IMG/VR virus record: IMGVR_UViG_3300042892_000428
Location: 1-38,081 of that record
Reading direction: 5' to 3' (one strand)
From: a virus
Length of the DNA: 38,081 bases
Numbering within the stretch: the first letter of the stretch is position 1; each line of letters opens with the position of its first letter. Shown here piece by piece: positions 2,716 to 28,271 of the stretch. The position numbers and the translations under genes are program-made. The notes below the pieces were generated by a model, which worked only from the letters and a program-made list of their open reading frames with translations, was not told where the DNA came from and did not search any database.

Positions 2716-2720
2716 ACAGC

Positions 2721-2776: not shown

Positions 2777-2789
2777 CATAATTAAAAAA

Positions 2790-7370: not shown

Positions 7371-8762
7371 TTAACTTTCTATTTGGAACCAGAAGTCACC
7401 ATCTGCAGAACCAATATCATTTACACCAGGATCGGGTTCAGCTGTGCTGACGATCTTAGCACTGCGATGTGCCGCATTACCCCACCATTGTCCTGCTGTC
7501 CTTACATACCCCGTTGATGCTACTGACGCATCACCTGATGCACCACGTGTAGCTGTTACTACGTTAGCTGTAGCACCATTTTCTAAATACACACCAGCAC
7601 TGGTAGCTGTCATTATAGTAGATCCATCGATGACTAGATTTGCAGAACCGGTGCCGCTGTCATTGAACCACATCCAACTGTTGTTCTGATAGATCTTGTA
7701 TGGGAATAATCCAGATAACCCTGATGATACAAATTCTGTAGTAGCGATCATCGTATTACTTGTGCCAGCCGGTGCTGTTACTGCTGTTGAAATGCCCCAA
7801 AGATTAGCATTGATGAATCTATCGTCAACATAACCTTTAGTAGCAATTCCTAATGTTGTAGTCGGAACTGCGGCAACTTCAACTGCGCCACTGACACCAT
7901 TGATGCTGAGATATTGTGTAGCAATGCCTGCTGTTGTAGCTCTAACACTAATATTACCACCGTTGATATTGTTAGTGATTGTTAGGGTATTGCTGGCTGT
8001 AGATAATGTAGCAACTTGATAATTACCAAGTGTAACACCACCATTGTTTAAAATTGCCAGTGTGCCTGTGCCGCTGTTGTTAATGTTATTACGGAAATAG
8101 TTAGCTGCTGGCTGTGTGCCCAGATAGCTGGAATTATTAGCTGTGCCCCAAATTGTTCCAGCAGTGCTGATTGTGCTCATGTTATAACCAATCTGGATAG
8201 TGCTAAAACCTGCGATCGGTGTCGCTGGAGTAAAGTTTGTAGAGCTAATTATCGCTGTGCGTGTGCCATTGAGATACATAGAAACAACATCAACCAATGT
8301 TGTACCGTTACTGATCTGTTCCCAAAGTGCGCCACTCTTACCGTTCACAACGCTGTAACCAGGGCCTACTAAGATCCAACCTTCAGCTGCATAAGGACTA
8401 GTTCCATCATAGCAGTATAATTGTTTATCGGTATCGTCCCACCATAGGTCGCCTGCAACTGTTGTGCTTGGAGGTGTTGATTGGCTTGTGCAACTACCTA
8501 CATTTTTCCAGATAGATGTTGATGTCCAAACTTTTAGTGTCTTGTTACCAGAGTCATACCATAATTGTCCAACGTTGGGGGCGGTTGGGCTTACACTGTT
8601 AGAGAAGTTCACTAGTAATGCTACAAGGTCCTCGGCAATGATTTCCCCGTAACCTGCATAGTTACGTCCTACTAAAGTCAAGCTGGAAGCAGTATTGTTC
8701 ACTGTACCATCAAGTATAGTGCAAAGTATTCCGCCATTGGGTAAGTTAATTACATACGACAT
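7371..8762 (-). CDS. Tail fibre paralogue 1
   Basis: The protein has 463 residues. The N-terminal 145 residues are the shared module (MSYVINLPNGGILCTILDGT, TLVGRNYAGYG, LLVNFSNS, GQLWYD, GDLWWDDTDKQLYCY). The middle contains ATKGYVDDRFINANLWG and MIATTEFV, repeats common in fibre shafts. The C-terminus ends DGDFWFQIES, a tag shared with paralogue 2. AGGA lies 9 bases upstream of ATG at 8762. The three paralogues are alike in protein but clearly diverged in DNA, so the duplication is not recent. A fibre role is inferred from composition, repeats and position after the baseplate genes. Confidence 0.75.
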   Translation of the reverse strand: MSYVINLPNGGILCTILDGTVNNTASSLTLVGRNYAGYGEIIAEDLVALLVNFSNSVSPTAPNVGQLWYDSGNKTLKVWTSTSIWKNVGSCTSQSTPPSTTVAGDLWWDDTDKQLYCYDGTSPYAAEGWILVGPGYSVVNGKSGALWEQISNGTTLVDVVSMYLNGTRTAIISSTNFTPATPIAGFSTIQIGYNMSTISTAGTIWGTANNSSYLGTQPAANYFRNNINNSGTGTLAILNNGGVTLGNYQVATLSTASNTLTITNNINGGNISVRATTAGIATQYLSINGVSGAVEVAAVPTTTLGIATKGYVDDRFINANLWGISTAVTAPAGTSNTMIATTEFVSSGLSGLFPYKIYQNNSWMWFNDSGTGSANLVIDGSTIMTATSAGVYLENGATANVVTATRGASGDASVASTGYVRTAGQWWGNAAHRSAKIVSTAEPDPGVNDIGSADGDFWFQIES

Positions 8763-9467: not shown

Positions 9468-11342
9468 TTACCATATCGCCAAGTTAGCGCGGCGCCAAGT
9501 ATTGTCAGCAATACATACATAAACGTAACTGCTATCGTAGCTGATCTGTCCAGTAGTTCCTACTGAGTTATTAGCTGTTGGAACATAAACGTTGCAGACA
9601 ATTAAATTGCCGCAAATGGTTACATTTGAATTACTAAACGTAGTAATTACATTTCCAGCTAATGTTCCACCAACGTGGACTTTAACTGTGGTATTGGGTG
9701 TATCTGTTCCTAAGGTCAAGTTCCCTGAATTAATGTAAACATACCCGTCGTTTTTACCGCTGACTGTCCAGGAGCTTGAGCTAAAATTATTACCATTTAT
9801 ACCCATGTCAATATATTTGCTGGTGTCTGTGCCATCTGGGGCTGTGGCAATAAAGTCTGCACTGTTCTGTGTTCCTACGCTGTCAACGTTTTGTATGTTT
9901 AGTTGTGAATAACTATTAGCAACGCCAATACCAGTGAAAATTACATTAGCAAAGGCAACACTTGGGAGTGCAAACCCTGATGTGATATTCCCTCCAAATA
10001 CTACAAAATCGCCAGTATTTACCAGTGCCCCAACATTACCACTGTAGGTTGGTAGATATGTAGAAACTTTCGCATTACTATATGATTGATCATCTACATA
10101 CCCTGTCATCCCAATGTTGGCAGTTAAGGTTGAATTATCAACATATCCTTTCATTGCTAAATTAGCTTGAGTAATATTATTATTTAAAGTAGTGATTATA
10201 GGTGCTGTATTGCTAAATGCTGTAGACTGTGTTGTAGCATCTGGGAATATTATATCACCATTATTATTAAATGCCCATTGCTGAGCTACATTACCATCGC
10301 TGTTGGTTTCTAATACTACGCTATCACTAGCATAAACTGCGGCATTGCCTGTGTCTGTTAAGTATATGCTGGTAGCATCGCTGATAATATTGCTGGTAAA
10401 CACTGCGGTGCTGGCATCTTCATTATAGATTGCTGTGTTATCGGGTAAACTAATATTGCCTGGAATTGTGGTATCGCCAGTAGGATCAAAGGACCAAGTG
10501 CTGTCACCTGCGGTCAGTGTTCCGACATCATTTACAGCGTTAATAATAAATTCAGCCGGATCGCTTAAATATTGGCCAGCAAAAGTTAACACATCACCAG
10601 CGGTATATCCTTGACCGGGATTATATACCTCCCATACTGAAATGCTACCACTTCCACTCTCGGGGTTGGTAGTTTCTTTGATCACGAAAGCGAATCCAGT
10701 TCCTGTTCCACCCGTGGGATATATAACAAATCCTCTGTTGTATCCTTTTTCTGTTCCAGGATTAGTTAATGTGACAGAATCAACTGCACCCTGTATAAAA
10801 TTAACTCCCCCGGCACCGCAATTAACCGTATTGGAACTAACTGTTGGAGTAGAAACACTGGCTGCACCAAAGTCGCCAGTTGATGTTATATTACCTGCTG
10901 AGATATTACCTGCTGTGATATTGCCCGTAGACCCTTCAACACTGAATGTTGGAGTAGTTGTAGTATTACCTACTGTTGTAGATCCAACTGAAATATTACT
11001 AGCCGAAACATTGCCTGTATAGGTATCTAGACCACTTGTTCCGACTGCGTTTCCGCCAAAAGTTAGTTCTCCGCCCGCAGTTCCGATCGGAACTCCACCA
11101 ATGTAAAGAGTATTAGCACTTAACCAAAGATCTTTCCACCATGTAGTAGAGTTACCAATGCTATAAGTATTACTGGCTAACGGAATTATATTACCACCAG
11201 CATTGCCTAAAATATAAGTTCCTAGTTGATCCAAGTTGGCCTGCACGGTAGTTAATGTGCCCGTGATGTTGCTGACTATGGGTAACAGGACATTGCCCTG
11301 TATAGCAGCTACATTTCCAAGTTGGCTAATCTTAATTGTCAT
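9468..11342 (-). CDS. Tail fibre / collar-type structural protein
   Basis: The protein has 624 residues. It starts MTIKISQLGNVAAIQGNVLLP, a usual opening for phage fibre or adhesin subunits. It then has ASNTYSIGNSTTWWKDLWLSANTLYIGG, a widespread phage fibre repeat, and short GNIxAGNI/GNISVG repeats. Residues of about 190-280 hold a module with LTNPGTEKGY and NPGQGYTAGDVLTFAG that resembles a repeat near residue 3830-3900 of the upstream giant protein. GYVDNSTLTAN and GYVDDQSY shaft motifs follow, and the end is a QISYDSSYVYVCIADNTWRRANLAIW tip. The ATG shares its A with the stop of the giant gene, with GAGG just upstream, so the two are translationally coupled. Function in host contact is inferred. 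Confidence 0.75.
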   Translation of the reverse strand: MTIKISQLGNVAAIQGNVLLPIVSNITGTLTTVQANLDQLGTYILGNAGGNIIPLASNTYSIGNSTTWWKDLWLSANTLYIGGVPIGTAGGELTFGGNAVGTSGLDTYTGNVSASNISVGSTTVGNTTTTPTFSVEGSTGNITAGNISAGNITSTGDFGAASVSTPTVSSNTVNCGAGGVNFIQGAVDSVTLTNPGTEKGYNRGFVIYPTGGTGTGFAFVIKETTNPESGSGSISVWEVYNPGQGYTAGDVLTFAGQYLSDPAEFIINAVNDVGTLTAGDSTWSFDPTGDTTIPGNISLPDNTAIYNEDASTAVFTSNIISDATSIYLTDTGNAAVYASDSVVLETNSDGNVAQQWAFNNNGDIIFPDATTQSTAFSNTAPIITTLNNNITQANLAMKGYVDNSTLTANIGMTGYVDDQSYSNAKVSTYLPTYSGNVGALVNTGDFVVFGGNITSGFALPSVAFANVIFTGIGVANSYSQLNIQNVDSVGTQNSADFIATAPDGTDTSKYIDMGINGNNFSSSSWTVSGKNDGYVYINSGNLTLGTDTPNTTVKVHVGGTLAGNVITTFSNSNVTICGNLIVCNVYVPTANNSVGTTGQISYDSSYVYVCIADNTWRRANLAIW

Positions 11343-14300
11343 TATATATCCTCAGTATAAATTTCTACATTGCTTTCAGTGGTTAATGTATTTATCGCAT
11401 CTTCAGTGCCTAGACCTTGAGATGTTTCAACTATTGGTGCTATGTTAGCTTTTAAGAACAATGCTCCCGGTGTAGTTGATCCAGTTAATCCTGTTCCATC
11501 TATAGCAGTTCCCGACCCGCTGTTGTATAATACATTGGCAAATACCATTAGATTTCCGGCAAACGTACCTGGTATAGTCTGTGCTGAGCTAGCATCAACT
11601 ACCTGTGCTCCTGCTCCATGTTCTAGATAAGCACTAGTTCCTTGTGTACCTCTGCGTAGCTGTCCTAAGACATTTAATCCCGGTAATACAGAAACGTTTG
11701 CTTGAACACTGGCATTACCAAAATCATCAGGCGCATTAACATTACCTGTGGTCCTATAGTTGATTCCACTGTTACTAATGGCTGTACCAATTGCATAGCT
11801 GGTATTAGCAGTCCACGCAACTGGAGTATATACGGTTTTAGTATAATAAGTTATACGTTCACCGTTGATGAATACTACCCCAGGACGTGCATATACTGTG
11901 TTAGGTGTTGGTAATACATTCGCATCAACTACAAAAATTTCGCTGTCTGTTAACTGTAAAGGTAGCTCTAAGATAGTGGACGCCGCACTTGATATACGTA
12001 GATAGTTAGTTTCATCCATCATATTATCAAACACGCGATAGGCTATGATGTTAGCATTAGCATTGATTTTAGTATAGATTCTCATGTCTAAGGTGTCATA
12101 GGTCCTACCAGGAACTAGTTCTTCTGGAGCATGGCTATGATCTGTATCAACATACGCACCACCATCAGTGATGATATCTTCCGGAGCTGTTCCTAAGCTG
12201 AGTTGGCTGTATAGGCTGTACATAGCTACATCTACACTTCTAGTAGATAATAGTGCCAGACCGTCGCTGCTGTATTGAACAGCATCATATGATGCAACAT
12301 CATATCTACGACCATATAGTGGGCTCAGACTAAAGTCAGCACCTTGCACAGGTAATTTTGGATAATCGATGCCATTGATCAATGGACTTAGATTATCATA
12401 GTTTGCCGTTATGGTATCATCTGTGTTAAGAGTAACATTCACAGTGAGCGTTACCTGAGTAACTTTGATTGGTATACCACCGTAACTGATTGGTACAGCA
12501 TTGGCTGTAATACTAGCAGGATTGCTTAGATTCAAACTATTAGCAAACCAACTATTATTTACGATAGTGGTTTCGAACGGTATGCCGATACCGCTGACAT
12601 ATTCACCAACTTCTGGAGAAGCCTCAAATGATGGGTGGATATTACCGCTGATGCCCGAAATAGCTGTGCTGTTGTTGGCAATATTAGCAGTGATAGTTCC
12701 ACGACTGTTAACCATCAATATAACGTTAGATACTATGTTGGCTATATAACCTGCGTCAACTCCGTTGCTGGTAATATACATACCTGGTAGTAATGTCGGA
12801 GCATTGAATACATATATTGTATCAGTATCGGCTGCAGTATTAGCCAATGTCACTGGCACAGATATAAAATCAATGGTCGGCATTATATCAGTTGGCTCAT
12901 AGAAACCAACTATGCGATCGTTGGCATTACTAAATGCATTGGCAAAATATTCAGTATAATCACTTGGAATAAATGTAGAAGCTGTAGTAATATTTGAGTT
13001 TACGCTATAGGCCTTACGTATCATCACGTTGCCATCTTGGAAAGCATAGCTAACGATCTGTCCTGCGGTATAGGTCGTATTAGCTGCCCAACGTTGGACG
13101 GTGCTGTCATAACTGATACGATCAAATTTTATCTTAGTATCAAAGCTACGAGCAAACGGACTCTTCATTACTGCATAAGCATTTGCCTGTGTAGTAGCAC
13201 TGCCATTGATGATTACGCTTGGTGTAGTCGTATATCCAACGCCTGCATTAGTCAGTGTGATTGATGTTATAGCACCAGTATTACCGTCAATAACGGCTGT
13301 AGCAGTGGCGCCACTACCATTGCCGTCTACGCTAGAAATAGTCACTGTAGGTGGAGTAGAATAATTAGCACCACTGCTTTCTAATTGTATACTTGACACT
13401 ACTAGATTTCTATTAACATACCATTGATTGTATGGGAATGTCTGCCAAGTTGCAGAATCTTCTTCAACATAAGGAACTTCGCCACTCGGACTACGGAATA
13501 TACCGTAACCTGTTGATGTATCATAGTAAGCCGGTAAGTCAAAGTCTGTAACGCTACCTTCATAGGTATCATCACCAGTGTAGTCGATCAAATATTCACG
13601 TATCTTAGTTCTATAAGGTTTAACTTCATTGATATAGTCTTGATAGTAGGTTTGGTTATCAACTACATAGCTTGGGAACTGTGCAAGTGATCTTAGTTTA
13701 TGAGTTACGCTGATAAAGCTGGATTTAAATATCCAGTCAACATAGTTTTGTTCTGTCAACAGATAGTTAACTAGAATAAAAAACATATTATTGAATTCGC
13801 CCTCTAAGGTGTTGGTAAACAGTTCGTCGTTTAACGATTGCACTATAGCACGGATCTCATTGTTGGGATTTTGATCAAATCTATTGCTGTCAAAGTCTTG
13901 ATTACTAAAGCCAAGACTATTGCCTGCAAAATCACCCAATGATGTATCAAGCTGTATAGTACCATTTTGGATACCCACTACCTGCAATGTTCCATCATCT
14001 TGAACTACAACTAACTGCCAGGTGCCTGCACCAGTGGCGTTGCTGATATAGATAATCTGTCCGCCAACCGCACGTAATTTTAATGCATCGTTGGTAGTGT
14101 TAACGCTGAAGTCTGGTTTAGTTGCTGAGCTATATCCATCAGCATACCAATCAATGTAATTCCAATACAAGCTGGTCTTGTAACTTTGAACTTTGATTAT
14201 CTCCCAAACCTTAGATTCTGATAATTGATATAATACCCAAAGACCATTTTGGGTTATATCATTGTTTACTAATACTCGATATCCGGGAGCAAGTTCATCT

Positions 14301-17300
14301 GTGTTGATATAAGATAATTCTATTTCTGTCGTTACACCTTGTTCGTATTCACCTTTTTTATAACTAGGTGTAGGTTCCTGTGCATTTAATCCTGTAAGAT
14401 CAAATTGTTCAGTTATAGGATTAACAGCAAATATGTTATTGACAAAACTTACCATCTCATTAACAGCCTGTAGTCTATTAACAAACATATTCTGTCTTGG
14501 TCTAAAGCTAATACCATATCTGTCAGCTTGACTTAATTTTGGATCTGGAACTGTAGAGCTAGATTGATCTATACCACTTAAACTGTCAATTAATTTATTA
14601 ACTATGTTAGTAGGTATAAGATTATCTGGATTACCTTGTTGCACTAGCTCATATTCACTATGTATGATATCAGTATTGATAACCAACTGATGGTCTAGAT
14701 GCATGATAGTGTTGTCAGCTGATAGGTATTCACTGACGTTATAGAACGCTATTGCATCACCACGTATTATTGCACCAAACGCAATGTTTTGATTTTTAGG
14801 ATTTAGTATATAGTCTGTAATAGCACTGACTGGTAACTTCCTGCTTGGATTGTTAGGGTCAACGCTGGTTTTATTCTTAACCCAATAGTAGTAACGTGTA
14901 ACAATAATGCTGGTTACTGGATCTACAAAGATTTCTTCTACGTAAGCACTGTCATCTGCATATTCAGGTATACCATCACCACCGTTGGCCGCATATTGGC
15001 TCGGTAGATAATTGCTTCTCACCCACTCAAGGACTTCAACCGTTGATCCTGGGAATAGTTGTCCCCAATATAAACTACGATAGGTTAATGTATCTTGTTC
15101 ATAGTCAATATATCTAAGTTTAGAAAGATTCCACCATACTTGGCCAATTTGGTTATTGCCCCAATAGATATTTTGATTGATGTCTGCTTTGGGGTTCGTT
15201 CCTCTATTATAGATAGCAGGATCATATTCTGTTTTAAATGAAATTTCTTGTTCAGCTTGTCCTAGTATGCGACCTTTAGCAGGATCAATAAATTGTAGAT
15301 TATATTTAATCAGACTGGTTGTGTTATCGTATAGATATCCACGGCTGATACTGTCAAGATCAACTTTGGGCTGTTGATAACGGATAAGTTCCCAACCTCG
15401 TATCATCAATGGGTTAGAAAATATATATACTGTTCCTGATTGTGCAGGTTTTCCACTTAACGTGGTGCCTGGCGCAGACACTGTGACAAATGTTCCTTCG
15501 ATATCTAAGCTGTAGCCAAACTGTGCGCCTTCGATCAAACTACCTGGATCTAATTGTTGTGCGTAAGCATAACGACCTGGATGTTCAACCATATTACGTG
15601 GATCATCGTATAATTCATATATGTAAACGCTACCACTGCCTTGGATGGTGTCATATAATCTTGTAGTGCTGTCATCCATAGTAGTACCAGCCGGTGTAGT
15701 CAACACATCAAATGTAGTAAATTGTTTTGTAGTTCCGCGGGCACTGCCAATTACCAACATATAAGCATTGGCAGCTAGTTTAACCTTGTTACCAAAATAT
15801 TCTCCCGGAAGGCCAAACGGATTAACGATAATCTGCATGAATGCAAACACGATAGTGTTAGCATCTGCATAAACACCTGGACTACCTGGTTGATTGGTTC
15901 CGGCCAGGATACGTAGTAGATTTTTAGCCACTGTGCTGTCAGAATCAAATCTTAATCTTCCGGCACTATTGCTTGCTGTAATACCTAATAATTTGGCATC
16001 ATTGACATCTTTAACAAAGCTGTCTAGACTAACTCTTAACTGTGCTGTGGTCGTTGTACCGTTAACACTGACGATATTACCTGACGACCAACTAAACACA
16101 TTAGCATTGTCGTTGTAGTCACTGACTGTGATATATCTACTACCAGTCGCCGGTGTATCAACTAATACTGTTACATTAGCTACGCCAGTAGCAGATACAG
16201 TCTGTGTGATATAGTCGCCTACATTGGCTCGGACATTGGCACTTAATGTTATAATATTACCAACAGTCGCAGGCATCCAACGACCGCTGACTGTAATCTC
16301 AAAGTTGTCTAGGCGAATACTGTCGCCTGGCATGAATATTGGATCTGTGTCATAGGCAGTGTTAGTACCATATAGTCGACCTTTGTTATGGAACTTCCAG
16401 ACCGCACCTGAATTATATTCTGTGCCATTGTTATAATTAGGTGCGCCGATATAGATAGCACAGTTGTTTGAACAGATCGTTAGGCTGGTGCCAAATGCCG
16501 CATTTGATTGGATAGCTCTTAGTCCACCTTCAAGGCTGTCTACACCAACTAATCGTTCCAATAGCCTAAACTGATTAACTTCAATATACAGGACACGGCC
16601 GATTGGTGGAGGAGTAATAAATCTAATCTTGTTAGAGCCAACAACTATATAGTTAGTAACTTCAACGTTGTCTAAGGTAACTTTATAAACTGATGCTATA
16701 GAACCCTCTGTAGTGTAGTCCTGACCACCAGTTCCGGGGTCAGCATCTATAACTGTATTAAATGCTTCAATCACGCGATCATATACATAAACAGATCCTG
16801 CACCAATTTTAAGTGTACCATCATCGCCAACAACATTGTCATTTGGTGTGCCCACTGCTAGTTGTGCGCCATCAAAGCTGCTTGACAATGCAAACCCAAA
16901 TTGTGAGCCAGTGTTGCTGATTGGTAATGTCAATGTATCCAACAGTTGATAATAAGGTTTTTGCTTAATGCTGATGGTGCTGGTATCAAGTTTTTGTGGA
17001 TCAGCAATATTACCATTATTGACAAAGTTAATCGTCGTTCCATTTAGGTAATAATCAAGATTTGGAATAAATGTCTGATTCGCATTAGTAATCAATAGTG
17101 AGCTAGGATCATTAGTAACAGCCGGAGTAAATGCTGTTAAGAATATGTTGCTGGTTACAGCATAAGCATTTGCAGTCAATGGATATGCATCTACATTAGA
17201 TAAGAATCCGCCGGTGGTGATACTAAGTTTAGCTGATATATTGGCGTTTCCAACAGTTACGTTTGCGTCATAGACAAAGTTAATTAAATTGTCAACTTGA

Positions 17301-20300
17301 TAAGAATTAGCATTGACCCCAGGTGTAATATAAGTTATTGTGGCTGTGGCGCCGGTAGCGGCCTGTGTGATTGTAGACCCAACTACAACATTAGCACTAC
17401 CCAATAATGCTTGAAGATTTGCGCTGGTTGTTAGTGTGTATAAACTATTAACAGATATAATTTGTTCTGCAACAGGAATATATCTATTAAGACCATAGAC
17501 GTGAACATTACCGCTAGATACCGCAGAATCGCCGGGTGCACCTATGTATAACCAATCACCTGTTTGACTAAATGCCAGGCTGTGACCAAACTGTCCTTGG
17601 GAAAATACATTGCCTACAATGATTTGGGTGCGATCAAACGCAGTAGCAAATTCTGATTTATAATAGGTGTAAACATATCCCACGTTACCGTAACTTTTTG
17701 GAGCGCCAACTGCTAATACTGTATTAGATTCTGGATCAGTGCCGAGCTCAACAGCATGACCAAACGCACGAGTATTCGCACTCAGTGGACTGATACTGAA
17801 ACTTTCTTGGAACGTGCCTTCGTAATCTTTTAAGAATGTGTTAACTACACCAATGTTGCTGTTAGAGTTTGGAGCTCCAGTGACCACTATTAGCCCATCA
17901 CCGGACATTTTTACACTTGATCCATATCCATCACCAGCACTATATCCACCTGCTTGTTTAGTTAACTGTTGTTCTATTGTCCACGGTGCTTGTTTTTCAT
18001 AGACTTTCCAGGTATTGTTTGGCTGAGTGCCAAATGGTTGACCTTGCACTGCGTTTGTTTCAGCATCATCGTCGATCCAAATTTTATCACCAACTTTCCA
18101 GCCATTGGGCGGATTTAATAGTCCATATATGCGACTATCTTCCATATATAGGAATCGCATGCTATCCATGCGGAATAATATACCCAGACCATCTTGAGAA
18201 GTTAGGTTAGATGTGTCGCCTGCGTAGGTTACCATAACACTAGACGCGGTCATTACTCTATATACCTGATAGAATCCATCAAATGCTGGATCAAAGTCTT
18301 TGACTAAGAATACACTACCTGCAATAAATTTATGAGGGTCTTGTGTAGTAAATGTTATATACCCATTGAGAGCGTTAGCAACCTGTGTTACAAAATTATT
18401 TGTTTCAGTTACACGATAGACATTCCACTGTTGGCTAAAGTCTTTAGCGCACCATATGGTATAGCCACTGCCCATGTTAGCTATTTGACCATCAAGATCT
18501 TGATAGTTAGCCAGATCAAATATCTGCGTATCAACATCGTCAATGTTAACATATCCTGCTGTCGGAATATCATTATCATAGTCGCTGTTATCAGTCCTAT
18601 TAAGTGCAACATTACCAGTGAATCTTCCGTAAGATTTATAAAGCTGTGATTGATTGAATACTGTAATGCCGTCTGCTAGATTGTTGTCAGCTTCACCAAC
18701 AAATCTTGCCACACTAGGATTAACACCAAATGCGCTTTCATTTAATGGAATCTCTACAAAAGGGTTAGTATCTAATGCACCATATTCACCGACACGCATA
18801 GCCCATTCTTCGTAGTAGCTGATATCACTGCTTAGGTTATTAAATGTAGCCTTGAGCATCTGATTAACAGCATTGGCCGTACCTTTCTGCGCGATAAATC
18901 CTTTGTAGAATTCAATTTGTGTGGTTTCAGTTACACCAAGGTCTGATAGATAACGTCTTGGTTTAAAACCAATCAATGCATGGCTATAACTTATCTGATC
19001 TTGATCTTTAATCTCAGCATATGAGTCATAGAATGATTGTGACTGCACTGCTAGTGTTGAGAAATTAGGTAGTAGGCCTTTCTGGATTTGACTTTGATCA
19101 ATCTGTTGCCAATATTGGAATTCAAATGTAGTGCTGGCCACTACATCTATTAGAGCAGTGTAGTATTGGCTCTTATATTGGACTAACTCTCCTTTGAGAT
19201 AGTCCTTGCCTTGATTCCATTCTTTAACCACACCGGAACTGTAGACAAATCCAGGTGCTGATAGACTGCCATTCCAGGCTGCTGTTTTTTGCCCTACTAG
19301 TTTTAATCTAAACTGTCTATTACCGCTTTCTGGTTGATAGATAACATCATTGAACACTGTGGTATTGTCAAATACCAATGCGTGTTCATACTGCACTAAG
19401 TCAACTTCAACATATCCTATAACTGTTGCAGGATCAGTAAAATTAAGTTTGAACTCAGTGGCTGATCGCATGACATTGTAATTGTTATTTCTAACTAGAT
19501 TAAAGTTTTGATCTAATACCTTGCTGGCATATTGGCTATCTTCAATCCCAGCAGTGATCGCTCCAATAGTAACAGCACTGATACTATCAGCCACCGGTGA
19601 TAATACGATAATACTACCTGCTCGCCAACCTTGTTGTATCCAATATAAGAATTCTTTAACTGACAGTTTCCAATCACGCATTTCGTTTAGCATTGGATCT
19701 GAATCAGTGAATGTAAATCCCTGTGCTATTAGGTAACGTTCATAGCCTATCAGGAAGTCTGCTACCTGTTGTGCTGTGGTAAATTCATGGCCGTATGGCA
19801 CATTTAGTTTTAAGTTTTGATAGTTATTGAATATCGTAGCACTGCTGTTTAATACAGTTATTCTATAAGCATTATTATTAACTATGCTTGGGATGATAGT
19901 AAAGAAACTATTGAATAAATCGTAGCCTCTAACTGTCCAACCAAGGTCAGTTTTTTCAACAATAACTGCACTGTAAATCAACTTGTCGATAGGCACGGGA
20001 TTTTCATTTAGATAAACACCGTAATTTTGATCTGGTATTAACACGCTGGCATTGGTGCTGGTAGGACTAACTTGTTCAGCTAATACTTCTAGGTATTTTT
20101 GATCAGTAAATCCTGCAACTTTGTAGGCAAGATTAACTTGGAAATTTTTCAACAACGGTGAGATATACGTTGAAGGATTAATACCTTGGCTGATAAGATA
20201 ATCAGCGATCCAGTTTAAGTAACCCGCACCTCTATATAATGTGCCTGAACTGGTATCACCATTAAATTGTATTATATTCTGTGTAATATGATGATTTGTA

Positions 20301-23300
20301 GTTAAAGTTAGATACTGTTCGGACCCTGTAGATATTCCGGTTGCTGTGTCTTGTATAGTATACAACGGATTGATATATGAATAGTTGTAGGTGTCTATCA
20401 AAGATCCAAAATACTTAGCTGGTTTAGCTAATGCTAGAGCCTGTTGAACAGCATAGGGGAATTCACTGCTTGAACGCCAGGCAAATTCTACAGGACCATA
20501 TTGACCTACTTGCCAAGCTCCGGCTGCTCGCTTGGTGTTCAATGAGCGTGTTAATATCTGTTGTGGACTTAATAAATTACCATTTACATCCACAGGAATA
20601 ATTTGACTTAGTCCTGGACGTGCATAGTTTAAATCTACACCTTGGCGGAACCCGTCAACGATAAGGCCTGCTTCTAGATTGTCCCATAATAGTTTGTTAC
20701 CACCAGTGTATGGTCCTGGACCATAATAACTTTCCCACCAGTCTGGTTCTGCTGAGAATCCTAACATTTCCCAAGGCGTAATATGTGGACGGATAGTATC
20801 ATAGTAGTATTGATAACAAGCACGCCAGCTACCTGGTAAGTTTGCACCGTCGATTACATCAGTGCTGCCTGCATAGTTCCAAGTAAACGCATCATTGGGG
20901 TCAAATGTATCATTAGTGCTGAAATCTAATTTGTTATCGCCGATCCAGTTTAAGAAATAGATAGATGTCAATTGGTTAATTTCAGCCAGGGTATATTCAC
21001 TGGATCTGAATCTACCAGGAACCACTTGTAATATATCACCGAATGTACCGCTTAAAGGTAACTTGATATTATTATAGATACGTTTTTCTAACTCTAATAA
21101 AAAGTCATCACGGAAGTCGTTGAATGCTGGAGTAATGCTGCCGTCGTGTCCTCGTATAACCGTGGTTGGTGTTCTGTAGGTGTCATCTAGGAATATCTCT
21201 GGGATATAAATTGGCCATAACCCTAGTTTAGTAGGAGTCTCCGGAATGTAATTACCGTCGGTATTGCTGTATTCTACGATTCTAATAACATCATCTACTT
21301 CAAGACCAATCAAGAAATCAATCGATGGTGTTGTGGTATTAAATGTATAATCAACATTGTTAAGTAACTGCACATCGTTGCGATAGACTAATACTGCTTG
21401 GTTGCTGAGTTTTTGGCTATCAAATATATTAGTGATTTCATAGTTTGTTTTTAACGGATCAAATACTAAGAAACCATCTACACCCGGTTGCTGGCTGACA
21501 ATGTTAATCAAAGTACCATATGGCACCATGTCACTGTAGAACCAAGGGAATGATTTATTCTTAACTTGATTAATTTTAGTTAATATTAGATCAACACTGG
21601 CTGTTGGATCTGTTGGTTGTATACCAGTCAATGACGTGCTGAGTTCTAAAAATTTATTCTTAAATTTTGTATATTCTTGTTGTGCATAACGTAATGCGTT
21701 TACATAATTAGCTGTCTTGTCAATCAAGAACAAACTAGCATAGGGTGTTGGACTACTATGTTGTAGGATTGTTCCACCTTGTTGTTTGATATCAATATCT
21801 CTAAGATTACTTTGTCCTAAGATGTTACCTTCAACGATGGTGCTGTTCTGTGCCAATGCTACCAAATGGTTACGTATCTGTCCCAGTGTTAGTGTATCTA
21901 TATCAATGTTCTGTGCATTTAAATCTAAGTTTTGCGGAACTTGATAGAAACCCAACTTACTAATCTGTTGACTATAGATTAAGATATCAATTTGATCACC
22001 TACTGTCAGTGAGGTAGATAATCGAACAGCACTGTTGGCTAACGTCCAATTTGTTGGTTGTATATATTGGAAGTTTTGAAATACTTTAGTATAAGGTATT
22101 GATGCGTCTACTTCAGGAACGATGTCTACTACAAATGGATTATTAGTGCCATCAAAAACATAACTGATCTGTTGATACTGATGGCTAAGTTCAGGAACTG
22201 TGGCCCAGGTGTTCCTAGGTTGTAGTGTTTCAGCGGTTAAGATTTTTTGTATATAACCAGTATTAATCAGCTGTGTAGTTATAATATCACTGTCATTGAC
22301 ATAGCTAAATGTATCGGTGTTAAAATAGTTTTGGAACTTGATATCACCTTGTGTGGTAAATGTCTTGTAGCTAAGATAGAAATTAGTTACAGGATTATTA
22401 TTGCTGTCATAGATTGTAGGAATGATGCCTTTTGACAAGATTGGGTCTGTAGTTCCGGTAGCGGCCCGCACATAGCCAAAAATCTGTGTACCTACAAATG
22501 TAGATCTAATATATGTTGAAAGGCTCTTGCCTGTAGCATCTAATACATCAAACAATGGTGGTTGTTGTAATGCAGTTTTTTGTTGGCTTTCATTCCAGGT
22601 AACCCCATCATACCACCATTGACTACCTTTGTATTGGCCTAATGCCACTACCACGGTAGAATATGTCTCTACATCTCCATCTTCAGCCAATGATAATTCA
22701 ATACGATACGGTCCTGCGGGTAATTGTTGGTCATCAACTTCATATTGGACCAGACTAACTACATAAATTTTATTGCGGACCAACGGATCTTCATCGGCGC
22801 CAAAGACCACACGTAGGCCATCAAACAAGGTAACACCGAATGCTATGGCATAGGTCTGCCCTTGTAATTCTGTAAAGGCATTTTTAGTGCTGGTATCTAA
22901 GATATCAATGTAATCGAGTCCAATGCGCCCCTCATTGATTAATTGTAGATCACAGTCAAACTGCACGATAGGTCGTTGGGCTCTACTAGCCTGATCTATT
23001 GTTGGTAGTGTTCCATTATATTCAGAGGTAGCTAAAACTACATCAATATGAAACCAACGATTGGTACGTGACCAAGCATTGCGATCAACACTGGCACGAT
23101 TAATAGTGATATAATCAGGAAATATCTCGTTTGGATAGTTTAATGCTAGCTCAGCATTATAAGCTTCTGGGGTGATCAGCTGATCAACCGGAACTAGTCT
23201 TATACCGCCATTATATTGGCTAACGTCGCCGACTTGTTCTACGTAAAACTGACGATTTTGATAACTGGTCGGAGTTACATCTTCTGCAAATTGTATTTTT

Positions 23301-24862
23301 AATCCGCTAGTAAATTCTACGCCATTGGGGCTGGTATAGACTAATTGGCCAATGATGTCTGTTTCAACATCGATAGTCCACGCATTATAGTTTACTATCT
23401 GCACATTTTTATAAATGTCTGCCCTAGCGCCATCTTGTACCCATAGATTGTTCAACTGACAGGTAAGTATTGGAACTTGTTTTAGAAAACCATCATAGTC
23501 TTTGTAATATTCTTTATTAGCATTAACAACCCCAAATCTTACATAGACTTTTTCATCAACATTAACTGCTTGTTCGAATACTAGTCTTGTCACATAATCA
23601 ATCGATCCATCTGCATTCTTAATACCAGCATCAACATAGACCACACGGAATACACCGTAACGTTCTGCTTCTGGAACTACATACCCAGCATTAAAATTAG
23701 GAGCAGTAAATGTATATGCTCCACTGGCTGTGGTAGTAAGGTTTGCACTAAGTGTAACATTAGCATTGGCTGAATCAACGCTGACTATAGTAGTTCCGCT
23801 TGGGACACCTGTACCAGACACTGCAAGATTGGCAATTAATTTATCTGTTGAAGCTAGTGTGATGACATTAGATCCCGATGCTCCGGCTGTTGCTGCTAGT
23901 GTATTAACTATTACTTCAGGATAGGTCCATACTTCTTCACCTATATTAGTAGCTAACTGCACATTAACAAACACTAGATGTTTACCGTTAAGTTGACCTG
24001 TGATGCCACCATACTGTGGGTAGTTGGCTAAGAATGTCGAAACTAATTGATTTTGAAAATTACTAAATGGTAAAGTATCAAATGGAGTTGCATAGTCAAC
24101 TGAATAGACTAATTCTTGAGCTAAGAATCTATCTTGTGCTGTGGTTTGTGGAACATTAAATGTTATAGTTCCAACATCAATACCGTTATTTTCAACGCCT
24201 AATATATCTCTTGAGCTTAATGTAGGTGTTGCTGAGATCACACCATCTACACCTAGCTCAGTTTGTATCCAGAATGGAACTCCGGGTTGATCAACAGTAA
24301 AGGTATAACTACCTCCACGTGCTAAAATAATGCTGTTGTCTACTACACCATTGCTCTTGAATATATAACGACCATTGGCACTGTCTCTAGTAACCACATA
24401 ATCTATAGTGAGATCAAGGCCAGTAGTATTAACTTCTACGAAGTCAGGTCCATCAGGTAACCAATAGTATTGGCTAAAATTAACAAACTTGTCATAGCTG
24501 ATACGTGGGTCAAATGTATAATATTCTTGTTCAAACATTCTACTATGATCGGTGGTAATACCGCCATAGTAGCTGATCTTTTCAAGTAGATCAACATAGG
24601 TTGCAAAGAATGTAATATTATTTTGTTGATCTCGTATGACCACACTAGGTTCAAGTTGATAATCTTGCCTAACCGCAGTGTCTTCAAGGACATAACTGTC
24701 TGTGCTTTTATACGTGGGAGCAAATCTACGACCAATATAACCATACAGCGTGGCAAAATTTGGTTCTGATACCAACTGATCCATGGTCGCCGACAAGAAC
24801 TTCTGATTCGTGTCGGATCTAAAGGTAGTTGGTAAAAAGTTATAGGTTTTTCTTTCAGCCAT
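11342..24862 (-). CDS. Giant 4506-residue baseplate/tail protein in the gp7-gp8 position, with seven FG-GAP repeats
   Basis: One uninterrupted frame of 13.5 kb begins at ATG 24862, with AGGA 5 bases upstream. It starts 8 bases after gp6 and runs straight into the fibre genes, where T4 has gp7 and gp8 (gp7 is about 1030 residues). Residues 1-150 hold YNFLPTTFRSDTNQKFLSAT and NFSQYYWLPDGP, a head that looks conserved. The segment near 1340-1560 is rich in Trp and Tyr (WWESYYGPGPYTGGNKLLWD). Between about 2311 and 3150 there are seven FG-GAP type repeats (FG..L....G....IGAP....G.VYVY), as in an integrin-like seven-bladed beta-propeller, with long inserts. Near 3830-3900 two GxGYxxxPxV repeats follow, and the last 700 residues are fibre-like. 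There is no protease, nuclease or membrane motif. The gp7-type wedge role is inferred from order; the propeller suggests protein or glycan binding. Confidence 0.75.
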   Translation of the reverse strand: MAERKTYNFLPTTFRSDTNQKFLSATMDQLVSEPNFATLYGYIGRRFAPTYKSTDSYVLEDTAVRQDYQLEPSVVIRDQQNNITFFATYVDLLEKISYYGGITTDHSRMFEQEYYTFDPRISYDKFVNFSQYYWLPDGPDFVEVNTTGLDLTIDYVVTRDSANGRYIFKSNGVVDNSIILARGGSYTFTVDQPGVPFWIQTELGVDGVISATPTLSSRDILGVENNGIDVGTITFNVPQTTAQDRFLAQELVYSVDYATPFDTLPFSNFQNQLVSTFLANYPQYGGITGQLNGKHLVFVNVQLATNIGEEVWTYPEVIVNTLAATAGASGSNVITLASTDKLIANLAVSGTGVPSGTTIVSVDSANANVTLSANLTTTASGAYTFTAPNFNAGYVVPEAERYGVFRVVYVDAGIKNADGSIDYVTRLVFEQAVNVDEKVYVRFGVVNANKEYYKDYDGFLKQVPILTCQLNNLWVQDGARADIYKNVQIVNYNAWTIDVETDIIGQLVYTSPNGVEFTSGLKIQFAEDVTPTSYQNRQFYVEQVGDVSQYNGGIRLVPVDQLITPEAYNAELALNYPNEIFPDYITINRASVDRNAWSRTNRWFHIDVVLATSEYNGTLPTIDQASRAQRPIVQFDCDLQLINEGRIGLDYIDILDTSTKNAFTELQGQTYAIAFGVTLFDGLRVVFGADEDPLVRNKIYVVSLVQYEVDDQQLPAGPYRIELSLAEDGDVETYSTVVVALGQYKGSQWWYDGVTWNESQQKTALQQPPLFDVLDATGKSLSTYIRSTFVGTQIFGYVRAATGTTDPILSKGIIPTIYDSNNNPVTNFYLSYKTFTTQGDIKFQNYFNTDTFSYVNDSDIITTQLINTGYIQKILTAETLQPRNTWATVPELSHQYQQISYVFDGTNNPFVVDIVPEVDASIPYTKVFQNFQYIQPTNWTLANSAVRLSTSLTVGDQIDILIYSQQISKLGFYQVPQNLDLNAQNIDIDTLTLGQIRNHLVALAQNSTIVEGNILGQSNLRDIDIKQQGGTILQHSSPTPYASLFLIDKTANYVNALRYAQQEYTKFKNKFLELSTSLTGIQPTDPTASVDLILTKINQVKNKSFPWFYSDMVPYGTLINIVSQQPGVDGFLVFDPLKTNYEITNIFDSQKLSNQAVLVYRNDVQLLNNVDYTFNTTTPSIDFLIGLEVDDVIRIVEYSNTDGNYIPETPTKLGLWPIYIPEIFLDDTYRTPTTVIRGHDGSITPAFNDFRDDFLLELEKRIYNNIKLPLSGTFGDILQVVPGRFRSSEYTLAEINQLTSIYFLNWIGDNKLDFSTNDTFDPNDAFTWNYAGSTDVIDGANLPGSWRACYQYYYDTIRPHITPWEMLGFSAEPDWWESYYGPGPYTGGNKLLWDNLEAGLIVDGFRQGVDLNYARPGLSQIIPVDVNGNLLSPQQILTRSLNTKRAAGAWQVGQYGPVEFAWRSSSEFPYAVQQALALAKPAKYFGSLIDTYNYSYINPLYTIQDTATGISTGSEQYLTLTTNHHITQNIIQFNGDTSSGTLYRGAGYLNWIADYLISQGINPSTYISPLLKNFQVNLAYKVAGFTDQKYLEVLAEQVSPTSTNASVLIPDQNYGVYLNENPVPIDKLIYSAVIVEKTDLGWTVRGYDLFNSFFTIIPSIVNNNAYRITVLNSSATIFNNYQNLKLNVPYGHEFTTAQQVADFLIGYERYLIAQGFTFTDSDPMLNEMRDWKLSVKEFLYWIQQGWRAGSIIVLSPVADSISAVTIGAITAGIEDSQYASKVLDQNFNLVRNNNYNVMRSATEFKLNFTDPATVIGYVEVDLVQYEHALVFDNTTVFNDVIYQPESGNRQFRLKLVGQKTAAWNGSLSAPGFVYSSGVVKEWNQGKDYLKGELVQYKSQYYTALIDVVASTTFEFQYWQQIDQSQIQKGLLPNFSTLAVQSQSFYDSYAEIKDQDQISYSHALIGFKPRRYLSDLGVTETTQIEFYKGFIAQKGTANAVNQMLKATFNNLSSDISYYEEWAMRVGEYGALDTNPFVEIPLNESAFGVNPSVARFVGEADNNLADGITVFNQSQLYKSYGRFTGNVALNRTDNSDYDNDIPTAGYVNIDDVDTQIFDLANYQDLDGQIANMGSGYTIWCAKDFSQQWNVYRVTETNNFVTQVANALNGYITFTTQDPHKFIAGSVFLVKDFDPAFDGFYQVYRVMTASSVMVTYAGDTSNLTSQDGLGILFRMDSMRFLYMEDSRIYGLLNPPNGWKVGDKIWIDDDAETNAVQGQPFGTQPNNTWKVYEKQAPWTIEQQLTKQAGGYSAGDGYGSSVKMSGDGLIVVTGAPNSNSNIGVVNTFLKDYEGTFQESFSISPLSANTRAFGHAVELGTDPESNTVLAVGAPKSYGNVGYVYTYYKSEFATAFDRTQIIVGNVFSQGQFGHSLAFSQTGDWLYIGAPGDSAVSSGNVHVYGLNRYIPVAEQIISVNSLYTLTTSANLQALLGSANVVVGSTITQAATGATATITYITPGVNANSYQVDNLINFVYDANVTVGNANISAKLSITTGGFLSNVDAYPLTANAYAVTSNIFLTAFTPAVTNDPSSLLITNANQTFIPNLDYYLNGTTINFVNNGNIADPQKLDTSTISIKQKPYYQLLDTLTLPISNTGSQFGFALSSSFDGAQLAVGTPNDNVVGDDGTLKIGAGSVYVYDRVIEAFNTVIDADPGTGGQDYTTEGSIASVYKVTLDNVEVTNYIVVGSNKIRFITPPPIGRVLYIEVNQFRLLERLVGVDSLEGGLRAIQSNAAFGTSLTICSNNCAIYIGAPNYNNGTEYNSGAVWKFHNKGRLYGTNTAYDTDPIFMPGDSIRLDNFEITVSGRWMPATVGNIITLSANVRANVGDYITQTVSATGVANVTVLVDTPATGSRYITVSDYNDNANVFSWSSGNIVSVNGTTTTAQLRVSLDSFVKDVNDAKLLGITASNSAGRLRFDSDSTVAKNLLRILAGTNQPGSPGVYADANTIVFAFMQIIVNPFGLPGEYFGNKVKLAANAYMLVIGSARGTTKQFTTFDVLTTPAGTTMDDSTTRLYDTIQGSGSVYIYELYDDPRNMVEHPGRYAYAQQLDPGSLIEGAQFGYSLDIEGTFVTVSAPGTTLSGKPAQSGTVYIFSNPLMIRGWELIRYQQPKVDLDSISRGYLYDNTTSLIKYNLQFIDPAKGRILGQAEQEISFKTEYDPAIYNRGTNPKADINQNIYWGNNQIGQVWWNLSKLRYIDYEQDTLTYRSLYWGQLFPGSTVEVLEWVRSNYLPSQYAANGGDGIPEYADDSAYVEEIFVDPVTSIIVTRYYYWVKNKTSVDPNNPSRKLPVSAITDYILNPKNQNIAFGAIIRGDAIAFYNVSEYLSADNTIMHLDHQLVINTDIIHSEYELVQQGNPDNLIPTNIVNKLIDSLSGIDQSSSTVPDPKLSQADRYGISFRPRQNMFVNRLQAVNEMVSFVNNIFAVNPITEQFDLTGLNAQEPTPSYKKGEYEQGVTTEIELSYINTDELAPGYRVLVNNDITQNGLWVLYQLSESKVWEIIKVQSYKTSLYWNYIDWYADGYSSATKPDFSVNTTNDALKLRAVGGQIIYISNATGAGTWQLVVVQDDGTLQVVGIQNGTIQLDTSLGDFAGNSLGFSNQDFDSNRFDQNPNNEIRAIVQSLNDELFTNTLEGEFNNMFFILVNYLLTEQNYVDWIFKSSFISVTHKLRSLAQFPSYVVDNQTYYQDYINEVKPYRTKIREYLIDYTGDDTYEGSVTDFDLPAYYDTSTGYGIFRSPSGEVPYVEEDSATWQTFPYNQWYVNRNLVVSSIQLESSGANYSTPPTVTISSVDGNGSGATATAVIDGNTGAITSITLTNAGVGYTTTPSVIINGSATTQANAYAVMKSPFARSFDTKIKFDRISYDSTVQRWAANTTYTAGQIVSYAFQDGNVMIRKAYSVNSNITTASTFIPSDYTEYFANAFSNANDRIVGFYEPTDIMPTIDFISVPVTLANTAADTDTIYVFNAPTLLPGMYITSNGVDAGYIANIVSNVILMVNSRGTITANIANNSTAISGISGNIHPSFEASPEVGEYVSGIGIPFETTIVNNSWFANSLNLSNPASITANAVPISYGGIPIKVTQVTLTVNVTLNTDDTITANYDNLSPLINGIDYPKLPVQGADFSLSPLYGRRYDVASYDAVQYSSDGLALLSTRSVDVAMYSLYSQLSLGTAPEDIITDGGAYVDTDHSHAPEELVPGRTYDTLDMRIYTKINANANIIAYRVFDNMMDETNYLRISSAASTILELPLQLTDSEIFVVDANVLPTPNTVYARPGVVFINGERITYYTKTVYTPVAWTANTSYAIGTAISNSGINYRTTGNVNAPDDFGNASVQANVSVLPGLNVLGQLRRGTQGTSAYLEHGAGAQVVDASSAQTIPGTFAGNLMVFANVLYNSGSGTAIDGTGLTGSTTPGALFLKANIAPIVETSQGLGTEDAINTLTTESNVEIYTEDI
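11389..11396 (-). promoter_or_regulatory. Possible late promoter motif GATAAATA inside the 3' end of the giant gene
   Basis: GATAAATA on the minus strand lies 46 bases before the ATG at 11342, inside codons of the giant gene. The leader would keep the GAGG ribosome site. It could boost fibre transcripts apart from the 13.5-kb gene, but a chance match within coding DNA is possible. Confidence 0.3.
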
Positions 24863-24869
24863 TATAATC

Positions 24870-27800
24870 CTAAGCAGTTATTAGTGCGCCAGTTTGGTTA
24901 AGTTGTGCCGCTGTAATAGCAGTGATAATCTTAACATCATTGACAGTCGCGCAACTGGTAATGATTTCATTAATGTTTGCATTGACCTGCATCAAGCTAC
25001 CAAACACGCTGGCTTCGTTAGCAGGGACTATGACAATACTGGAAATGTTTGGAACTAGTTGCATGTGTAAATATGCCGCAAGTTCACTGAAATAAAATGT
25101 TTCACCAAAGTCCCAATTGGCTATATCAAAGTAGCTGTTAATTGTAGCGATCACTGATGTTTGTATTTCGTTGTCGCTGATGACCACGTTAGAATTTTTA
25201 ACTACTTTAAACTGTGCCTGTAGTTTAGGATCAGCTTTGGCTCCAAACAATGGTTTAAACTGTGCGGGATTGTAGATGATAGTATCGCTAACGGCCTTAT
25301 ATTCATCTAAACTGCTGTAGCTAATTTCTAATTGATCACTGGTTGGCAAACTAGGTTGTGTGATAGTTCCTGTGATGTCCTGTACCCATGATTGATAATC
25401 GATACTGTATTGTTGTGTTAGGATATACAGGTCAATGATATTGTTTGGACTTGGGTCAATACGACGATTGTTTGGACTGTTGTGACGATATTGGAAATAT
25501 AAATCTTGTCGGCCTAGTTTAGCTGAATACCCCGTGACAGCATTTAATGTATAAACTTCTCCAGCGATCGATAATTGATAAAATGTGTCAATTGGCACAA
25601 TATAAAATAGTTGTCCGTTTTGGTATAAGGTAGCTGCTACCTGTGCATCACGTAGAGAAGCATATTGTGATACCACTGTGTTGTTATCAATAGGTGTTTC
25701 AGTTACAAAATTGTCATAGCCTATGATTGATTGGAAATAAACATATTTGTTAGTTACATCTACATTAGGATTAACCAATAGTTCAAACAATTCAGGATTG
25801 TCCGGAATACCATCGTTGTCGGTGTCAGAGAATGTTACATAGATTCTGTTGATGTCAGTGTAACCGTCAACTTCAGTGATACTCTTATAGATATTCCAAA
25901 TGTAATCGAGTGCTAGTGGATTACTGTTATCGGGTTGTGTGTTAACTTTTAATACTTTGATCTGATCTTTAACAGTCAATCCAGTAGAGGCATCAAAAAT
26001 CTTTGTAGTACCATCATAGTAAAAATTAGTTTCTTGCACGCTTTCAAATACATAATTTAATCCGCGATAGCTGACTGTGTAGGTTTGACCTACTGTTTGG
26101 AATGCTATGATCCAACTGCTGTCTAATGCTTGGCCACTAGTATCTCCTGTGTTGGTTAGACTGAATGCATCGCCGGTGTTTAGATCTTGTGGGGTGATAA
26201 TCTTCCAGCTGGCTGATACTATGTCATAGCGTAGGCCAAAATTAGCAAACGCCTGTATGTAACCAACCATAGTTGAAACCAGAGCATTTGAGAACGCTAC
26301 GTTAAACACAGCAAATACACGATCAGCTGATGGAAATTCGTCTATAGGTATGATCTGATTGATGGTCACTGGCCCTTCGCCATTACTTAAATTACCCTGG
26401 CCACCATTGGTGCCATCCCCTACTACTAATTCAATAGCCGCATAGACGTAATACTTGTCACCCGGATTGCGTGGTATTCCTGTTTTAATACGATTTTGTG
26501 CATCAAAGTAGTTGCCATCACCTGCTGATAGCTTAACTATAGAACTCTGCACGATATATTTGTTAGTGCTGGTTACTGCCGCGCCAATCTGTAAGATCTT
26601 ACCTGTGCTGTCTTGGAAATAGCCTGTGCAACCATTGGCAATAATTGTTGAGGTATGCCAATAGATATCAGTTAGATCTAATAATGGATAGTGTGCATAG
26701 AAAAACTGTAGTGTTTCTGGTGCTTGTGCTATTAGTGCTATACGATCGTAGATAACTTTATAAATGTCATTGGTAGTATTATAGTCAAAGCTAAATGTAT
26801 TGGTCGTGTTGTCACGATATAACATACCATCTTGTGAAAAGATATTAGTAGATGAATACTTACCGGTTACATCAATAACATCTAAATAACGACTGATGCC
26901 ACTTGATGTTCTATTGACTGCTTTGATCTTTAAAATATCATTGAATAAAGTGTAAGGCAAGATATTATAGTCTTCACCTGTAATCATACGATTCTGTGTA
27001 TAGAATTGTTGTGGTGCTTTTTGTTTAACGCTGTCAAGACTTTCACGTGTAGTAGCATTAGCCACTGTATATTGTAGGCTGGCTGTGATTGTAATAGTTT
27101 CAACGCGGCCTGCGGCACCAACATAGTTAATTGGTATTACCACACCCTGCATTTCATCGGGAGTGATTTTATATTGTAGGCCATTACTGACGCGATAGTA
27201 TATACGGAAGTTACCTTGTGGAATATTGGCAAATGATCCGTCACCAAAGATTAAATCAATTTGATCACCAGCGCGGCTATTGATCTGATAGATATTTTTG
27301 TTTGATGTAGCATTGTAGATAACATTGGTATTGGCCACTGCTGGAACTTTTTCCCATAGGATATCCAAATTACCGTTGCTGTCTAGGCTATACACCCAAA
27401 TGTCTGTGTTGTTGATGTTATTGGTATTAACGCTGTAAACACGATTAGGAATACTTTCAGCAAGATTAAAATCTAAGCTCTTTAATTCGCCTTGTTTAAA
27501 ATACAAGAAATATCCTGTGTTGTTACTGCCGTTGCCTAGGTTATCATTTCTATATAAAAAGTTAAATGGCGCATTTAGTTTAGGGTCAGCTTCGTAAATA
27601 TATGTTTCGTTTGCGCTGGTAGGACTTACCATTTCAAATGACATCTGTGATCCGGCTACAGTAGATTTAAAGCTGTAGGTAGATAAGATATTAGGCACTA
27701 GATTGATCTGATATTCTTCGTTAGTAATACCATTGATGATCTGACTGTAAGCTGGTTTGCCGATGGCTTGATTATTAACCAATGATGCATTAAGTATCAA

Positions 27801-28271
27801 TGTCATTTGTTCTAACCAATTGCTGTTACCTGCGTCTGCCCAATTGATCACTAATCCGCTCAGATTAAGACCATTACTGTCATAGACGTTTTCAGTAGTC
27901 GATACGCTGTTAAATTTCAATAAACCAACAGCAGGAATATTACGTTTAGGATTATAGCTGACTAGGCGTGCTAGTTTAAGTATGCTGTCACGACGCTGCG
28001 CAGTATCAATAAAGTTTTCACGAGCATTTAAATCTGCGCGGAACGCTAGGCTTTGGCCCAGGAACGCGATCATATCGATTAGGGCGATAAACTCACTGGA
28101 TTCAATGAAGTCGTTAAAGTCTTCAGGATAGTAAAGCTGTAGATAGCTAACCATGCTAGCACGAAGTGTTTCGTAATCATAGCTTTGGAAGTCTGCGTTA
28201 CGAAACGCTTGATATAGCTTAGTCCAATCTTGTGAGACTAATAAACTGGTTTGTCGTGTGGTGGTTGCCAT
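24870..28271 (-). CDS. 6: Baseplate wedge subunit, gp6-like
   Basis: The protein has 1133 residues, clearly longer than T4 gp6 (660). Residues 10-110 (SQDWTKLYQAFRNADFQSYD, YLQLYYPEDFNDFIESSEFI, IDMIAFLGQSLAFRADLNAR, RDSILKLARLVSYNPKRN) match the N-terminal hallmark of T4-like gp6. That part dimerises around the baseplate to make the inner iris together with gp25 and gp53. The central part carries the baseplate J-like segment near residues 330-450 (NRAGDQIDLIFGDG, RITGEDYNILPY-like MITGEDYNILPY). The extra length is in the C-terminal half, which also includes a DTDNDGIPDN stretch resembling a calcium-binding thrombospondin type 3-like loop. AGGG lies 8 bases before the ATG at 28271, and a late promoter motif lies upstream. 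Gene order 25-6 supports the call. Confidence 0.88.
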   Translation of the reverse strand: MATTTRQTSLLVSQDWTKLYQAFRNADFQSYDYETLRASMVSYLQLYYPEDFNDFIESSEFIALIDMIAFLGQSLAFRADLNARENFIDTAQRRDSILKLARLVSYNPKRNIPAVGLLKFNSVSTTENVYDSNGLNLSGLVINWADAGNSNWLEQMTLILNASLVNNQAIGKPAYSQIINGITNEEYQINLVPNILSTYSFKSTVAGSQMSFEMVSPTSANETYIYEADPKLNAPFNFLYRNDNLGNGSNNTGYFLYFKQGELKSLDFNLAESIPNRVYSVNTNNINNTDIWVYSLDSNGNLDILWEKVPAVANTNVIYNATSNKNIYQINSRAGDQIDLIFGDGSFANIPQGNFRIYYRVSNGLQYKITPDEMQGVVIPINYVGAAGRVETITITASLQYTVANATTRESLDSVKQKAPQQFYTQNRMITGEDYNILPYTLFNDILKIKAVNRTSSGISRYLDVIDVTGKYSSTNIFSQDGMLYRDNTTNTFSFDYNTTNDIYKVIYDRIALIAQAPETLQFFYAHYPLLDLTDIYWHTSTIIANGCTGYFQDSTGKILQIGAAVTSTNKYIVQSSIVKLSAGDGNYFDAQNRIKTGIPRNPGDKYYVYAAIELVVGDGTNGGQGNLSNGEGPVTINQIIPIDEFPSADRVFAVFNVAFSNALVSTMVGYIQAFANFGLRYDIVSASWKIITPQDLNTGDAFSLTNTGDTSGQALDSSWIIAFQTVGQTYTVSYRGLNYVFESVQETNFYYDGTTKIFDASTGLTVKDQIKVLKVNTQPDNSNPLALDYIWNIYKSITEVDGYTDINRIYVTFSDTDNDGIPDNPELFELLVNPNVDVTNKYVYFQSIIGYDNFVTETPIDNNTVVSQYASLRDAQVAATLYQNGQLFYIVPIDTFYQLSIAGEVYTLNAVTGYSAKLGRQDLYFQYRHNSPNNRRIDPSPNNIIDLYILTQQYSIDYQSWVQDITGTITQPSLPTSDQLEISYSSLDEYKAVSDTIIYNPAQFKPLFGAKADPKLQAQFKVVKNSNVVISDNEIQTSVIATINSYFDIANWDFGETFYFSELAAYLHMQLVPNISSIVIVPANEASVFGSLMQVNANINEIITSCATVNDVKIITAITAAQLNQTGALITA

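Follow-up and report, generated by a model that had tools for sequence, protein, structure and literature searches.

The DNA analysed here is a 38-kb virus record of the IMG/VR type (IMGVR_UViG_3300042892_000428); the window is the whole stretch of 38,081 nucleotides. Its largest open reading frame (ORF), of 4506 codons, lies in a baseplate operon with the order gp53-like, tail-lysozyme protein, gp5/VgrG-like hub protein, gp25, gp6, the 4506-aa ORF and fibre-like genes. The upstream gp53, lysozyme, gp5/VgrG-like, gp25 and gp6 genes support the baseplate setting that the initial annotation had given to the propeller protein. The main features are as follows.

24870..28271, minus strand: gp6-like baseplate wedge protein, 1133 aa (phrog_10646, E = 7.7e-298)
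11342..24862, minus strand: giant virion protein of the baseplate wedge region, 4506 aa (phrog_10938 family)
18668..21025, minus strand: conserved N-terminal flank, residues 1280-2065, common to PA5oct-like and Atu_ph07 homologues
15392..17980, minus strand: inserted propeller cassette, residues 2295-3157 (863 aa), with empty sites in L154 and L232/L240/L241/L242
14363..15391, minus strand: conserved C-terminal flank, residues 3158-3500, common to cultured RaK2-like jumbo phages
9468-11342, minus strand: fibre-like protein, 624 aa, the next gene after the 4506-aa ORF, with conserved ends and a mosaic middle among close relatives

Three further fibre-like proteins on the minus strand (7371-8762, 6083-7357 and 3765-5201) share a similar N-terminal part and form a paralogue family. 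Near the window start (2-2450, minus strand), ORFs look glycosyltransferase-like by eye.

The 4506-aa protein belongs to phrog_10938 (1175 bits), with homology over both flanks. The same backbone is found in the giant virion proteins of Paride/PA5oct, Atu_ph07, RaK2, K64-1, CBB, GAP32 and others; for Paride and Atu_ph07, blastp matches flank the insertion on either side. In Paride, Atu_ph07 and CBB, too, the gene directly follows gp6, the position that gp7 occupies in T4. The gene of the CBB homologue, CBB_236, follows that of the wedge protein immediately, and mass spectrometry of CBB virions identified the product through 21 unique peptides (PMC5259590). Two stretches of the 4506-aa ORF (residues ~1886-1920 and ~3925-3939) resemble carbohydrate-binding module 5/12 (PF02839), below the cut-off.

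No homology to T4 gp7 was detected for the giant protein or its propeller: hhalign gave probabilities of 1.3%, 0.1% and 0.2% using a six-member gp7 profile and parts of the 4506-aa protein, a comparison that leaves room for distant kinship. The suggestion that such a disk is not known in T4 is thus borne out only in part, so far as sequence similarity to gp7 goes, with the reservation that gp7 itself (L151:5061-8156) contains an Asp-box-like motif, SNDKGQTW. The Asp-box is typical of another class of propeller than FG-GAP. T4 gp7 may therefore hold a propeller of that other class, which we offer as a lead only.

The initial annotation had described seven FG-GAP repeats at 15400-17940, which corresponds to residues ~2308-3154 of the 4506-aa ORF. 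This was borne out. The computed repeats start with FG or YG at residues 2313, 2367, 2425, 2655, 2790, ~3024 and 3115, within 2 residues of the earlier figures. Pfam PF14312 (FG-GAP_2; gathering cut-off 23 bits) matches the full protein with E = 1.4e-10 (41.6 bits) and residues 2250-3200 with E = 1.8e-16 (60.5 bits), placing the repeats in this family, and it matches 35 of 35 homologues at E ≤ 1. The related family PF01839 (FG-GAP) gave no match in a search of the genome and was set aside in favour of PF14312. An HMM for cross-validation, trained solely on 64 repeats from a distant clade, finds exactly seven repeats in the 4506-aa protein, scoring 8.0 to 30.2 bits each; the best score among 200 shuffles of the protein was 5.9 bits, below all seven. 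A search of the PDB with the single sequence gave no match, and only a profile of the region built from 35 homologues reached integrins, matching alpha chains with a best E of 8e-8, in agreement with the relationship proposed earlier. Blades were counted in 99 of 124 unique homologues, the other 25 having none; seven is both the commonest count and the maximum. A second, partly overlapping set of 60 further homologues likewise never exceeds seven.

The blades and their inserts, all on the minus strand, were mapped from the HMM and from DSSP strands of the predicted model.

17945..17983, minus strand: N-terminal strand WTIEQQL, residues 2294-2306, assigned to blade 7 as its outer strand, which would close the ring
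17780..17944, minus strand: blade 1, residues 2307-2361 (HMM and DSSP strands)
17603..17779, minus strand: blade 2, residues 2362-2420 (HMM and DSSP)
17453..17602, minus strand: blade 3, strands 1-3, residues 2421-2470 (HMM and DSSP)
16958..17452, minus strand: blade 3 insert between strands 3 and 4, residues 2471-2635, ~165 aa
16748..16957, minus strand: outer strand of blade 3 and strands 1-3 of blade 4, residues 2636-2705 (HMM and DSSP)
16607..16747, minus strand: small insert of blade 4, residues 2706-2752, ~47 aa, capping an extended hairpin whose long strands are 440-453 and 508-522 of the model
16379..16606, minus strand: outer strand of blade 4 and strands 1-3 of blade 5, residues 2753-2828 (HMM and DSSP), the most conserved part of the propeller
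15848..16378, minus strand: blade 5 insert between strands 3 and 4, residues 2829-3005, ~177 aa
15578..15847, minus strand: blade 6, preceded by the outer strand of blade 5, residues 3006-3095 (HMM and DSSP); a long loop joins strands 2 and 3
15407..15577, minus strand: outer strand of blade 6 and strands 1-3 of blade 7, residues 3096-3152 (HMM and DSSP), the best PF14312 stretch

Inserts of 100 to 230 residues had been expected at three places. Those of blades 3 and 5 are of this size, but the one between blades 4 and 5 shrinks to ~47 aa if the hairpin is counted as part of the blade. DSSP strands read with the integrin topology place each of the three, in blades 3, 4 and 5, between the third and the fourth strand, which agrees with the proposal that they lie on one face. 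The blade 3 insert varies in length and sequence, with a mean identity to relatives of 42%. Two homologues of the blade 5 insert region match the Flagellin_IN motif, and in the 4506-aa ORF the resemblance is visible by eye. Loop conservation did not differ significantly between the two faces of the disk (p = 0.14), and no binding face stands out.

We asked whether the seven blades form one ring. The AlphaFold2 model of residues 2250-3200 (pLDDT 79, pTM 0.75) finds mostly integrin alpha chains as its best PDB matches (E ~2e-8), but the whole model superposes poorly, with a TM-score of just 0.36 of the target, presumably because of the inserts. Against viral models, Foldseek gives the same model a TM-score of 0.73 of a 411-residue Harvfovirus protein. 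The short-insert homologue L036 was predicted with a pLDDT of 83.6 and a pTM of 0.87. Its DSSP strands allow an assignment to seven four-stranded blades, the last of which would be completed by the strand before the first repeat. Foldseek aligns the L036 model with integrin alpha-5 at E = 6.7e-10 and a TM-score of 0.62-0.63 of about 450 residues. In the 4506-aa ORF the WTIEQQL strand (DSSP strand 46-51 of the model) has the same offset from FG as the other six outer strands, from which we infer closure. The large inserts between blades 3-4 and 5-6 (165 and 177 aa) and the low overall TM-score of the ORF's own model would also fit repeats that form separate domains, split by the inserts and never joining into one ring. 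We consider this very improbable, as the seven blades of L150 follow one another almost contiguously in ~430 residues without large inserts, the short-insert model superposes on an integrin propeller chain, and homologues never exceed seven blades. A closed seven-bladed ring in residues 2295-3157 is thus well supported by the L036 model, its superposition and the near-contiguous blades of L150. The cross-validated HMM, the L036 model and the integrin alpha-5 superposition together uphold the initial annotation's complete seven-bladed FG-GAP propeller.

The propeller resembles that of integrin alpha (FG-GAP, PF01839) in its seven FG-GAP repeats and strand plan. It differs in being part of a virion protein, in belonging to FG-GAP_2 and in the large inserts of blade 3 (~165 aa) and blade 5 (~177 aa). 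Integrin-alpha propellers carry calcium-binding loops of the DxDxDG type between strands 1 and 2 of several blades. A pattern search of residues 2291-3160 found no such motif. The phage domain would then be a seven-bladed FG-GAP_2 beta-propeller on the integrin-alpha plan, lacking calcium sites, in which the N-terminal strand completes the last blade. FG-GAP_2 type proteins of Harvfovirus, Terrestrivirus and Mimivirus LCMiAC01 share the fold by Foldseek (Harvfovirus up to 0.73-0.80 of the target by TM-score), but they are separate proteins of large eukaryotic viruses with no baseplate insertion. Similar repeats, by fold or sequence, occur in FG-GAP-like virion proteins of cyanophage S-TIM5 (H6WG31, 407 aa), Atu_ph07 (a 'hemagglutinin') and Sinorhizobium phage Phosso; these are products of separate genes rather than parts of a giant wedge-region protein. 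Baseplate propellers proposed for receptor binding are known from PhiKZ gp131C, with seven blades, and the phi11 RBP, with five (PMC4901313); they share with the present one the location at the phage baseplate but sit in other proteins.

The insertion point is exact. It falls at a conserved W...W of the giant virion protein, where the occupied site reads WKVYEKQAPW-(863 aa, ending RGW)-ELIRYQQPKVD and the empty site of L154 reads WKVYQKYGVW-FEYRSENKKVD. No FG-GAP repeats were found in the giant proteins of cultured relatives, including RaK2, CBB, PA5oct and Atu_ph07, and in those read the insertion point holds shorter or unrelated content. In Atu_ph07 (L069) the same slot is filled by ~1500 aa (residues ~1690-3130) of repeated glycine-rich beta motifs, unlike the propeller. 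A tree of 140 divergent rows, 118 with the propeller and 22 without, was built from the flanks. Presence or absence of the propeller requires just 3 changes on it, against 20.8 for shuffled labels. The propeller is cleanly absent from L232/L240/L241/L242 (L240 is the same contig as L232), which lie inside the propeller clade, and in L255 (L255:5757-8036) a YHYH domain (PF14240, E = 4e-29) occupies the propeller slot; the losers are a handful of contigs and L255 a single metagenome contig. No downstream partner gene was seen to be lost together with the propeller, the losers' downstream genes within reach of the locus being unchanged. Read most simply, a large clade of uncultured phages gained the propeller once, at its base, and the domain was later lost cleanly in one case and exchanged for YHYH in another; depending on the root, the basal change is either this gain or a single basal loss. 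The single insertion was most likely made into an exposed loop of the giant protein, in the ancestor of the clade. A history of one gain followed by loss and exchange points to a contact disk added on to the tail and not to one of its core parts.

The propeller is under purifying selection and evolves with its backbone. In three close pairs its dN/dS was 0.08-0.11 and that of the flanks 0.04-0.07, ratios that are rough because synonymous sites are near saturation in some comparisons. Propeller identity tracks backbone identity (r = 0.88, 595 pairs). Blades 5-6 are conserved like the flanks (0.79-0.83 versus 0.80). Lower conservation is seen in blades 1 and 2 and in insert 3. Against its nearest relative, the adjoining fibre-like gene (9468-11342) shows blocks of 45-59% identity, compared with 95% for gp6 and 99% for a 226-aa gene. 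Judged by sequence, its 624-aa product would be a likelier candidate than the propeller for setting host specificity. Low dN/dS, evolution with the backbone and the mosaic next gene together indicate that the propeller is probably not the main determinant of host range.

What might the propeller do? FG-GAP and integrin propellers are ligand-binding domains. This, together with the receptor-binding role proposed for the propellers of the phi11 RBP and PhiKZ gp131C, would suit a primary receptor-binding domain that sets host range. We regard that role as improbable in view of the low dN/dS, the lack of mosaic exchange among relatives, the absence of the propeller from some members and the more variable fibre-like gene beside it. 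The main rival is a structural docking platform, a scaffold within the baseplate to which a fibre, an accessory protein or the neighbouring wedge would be anchored and which would not touch the host. The strength of purifying selection and the joint evolution with the backbone fit docking equally well, blades 5-6 are as conserved as the flanks, and host specificity seemingly resides in the mosaic next gene. We nevertheless hold a docking platform to be less likely than an accessory contact disk, since the domain is missing from L240/L241/L242 and swapped for an unrelated one in L255 while the reachable downstream genes stay the same, and since no such domain was found in cultured relatives. 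Clean loss and replacement also argue against an essential inter-wedge part, one of the roles the initial annotation had raised.

The reading we lean towards, with modest confidence, is a closed FG-GAP_2 ring, inserted once, that acts as an accessory baseplate contact disk for a conserved ligand. A domain that can be lost or exchanged, that is held by purifying selection and that has a ligand-binding fold fits an exposed accessory disk; its exposure, orientation and ligand binding are what we infer from these properties. The propeller would most likely serve as a rigid disk on the baseplate and bind a ligand that varies little between hosts, for example a glycan or protein common on cell surfaces. 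The constrained side of the disk would consist of blades 4-6, and the freer one of blades 1-3 and insert 3.

Phage baseplate propellers are already known, as are FG-GAP proteins in viruses and cultured phages. The open-access papers searched contained no account of an FG-GAP propeller within this wedge-region protein and none that combines FG-GAP, baseplate and phage, and the paper on the 'moraphage' lineage does not mention propellers. An FG-GAP cassette inside the giant wedge-region protein thus looks new. The carriers are uncultured, distant T4-like (jumbo-type) phages, in which the end of a contractile tail that meets the host incorporates a propeller of the adhesion type, familiar above all from animal integrins. 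Its gain, loss and replacement can be traced at one exact site, and natural relatives that lack it make its role directly testable. Tentatively, the W...W point could be a docking bay for exchangeable surface domains, holding a propeller, YHYH, other beta-rich inserts or nothing, and the integrin-like baseplate disks of the propeller clade would then touch the host as a second and conserved layer, alongside the tail fibres. Phages of this type may use the site more generally to add surface domains.
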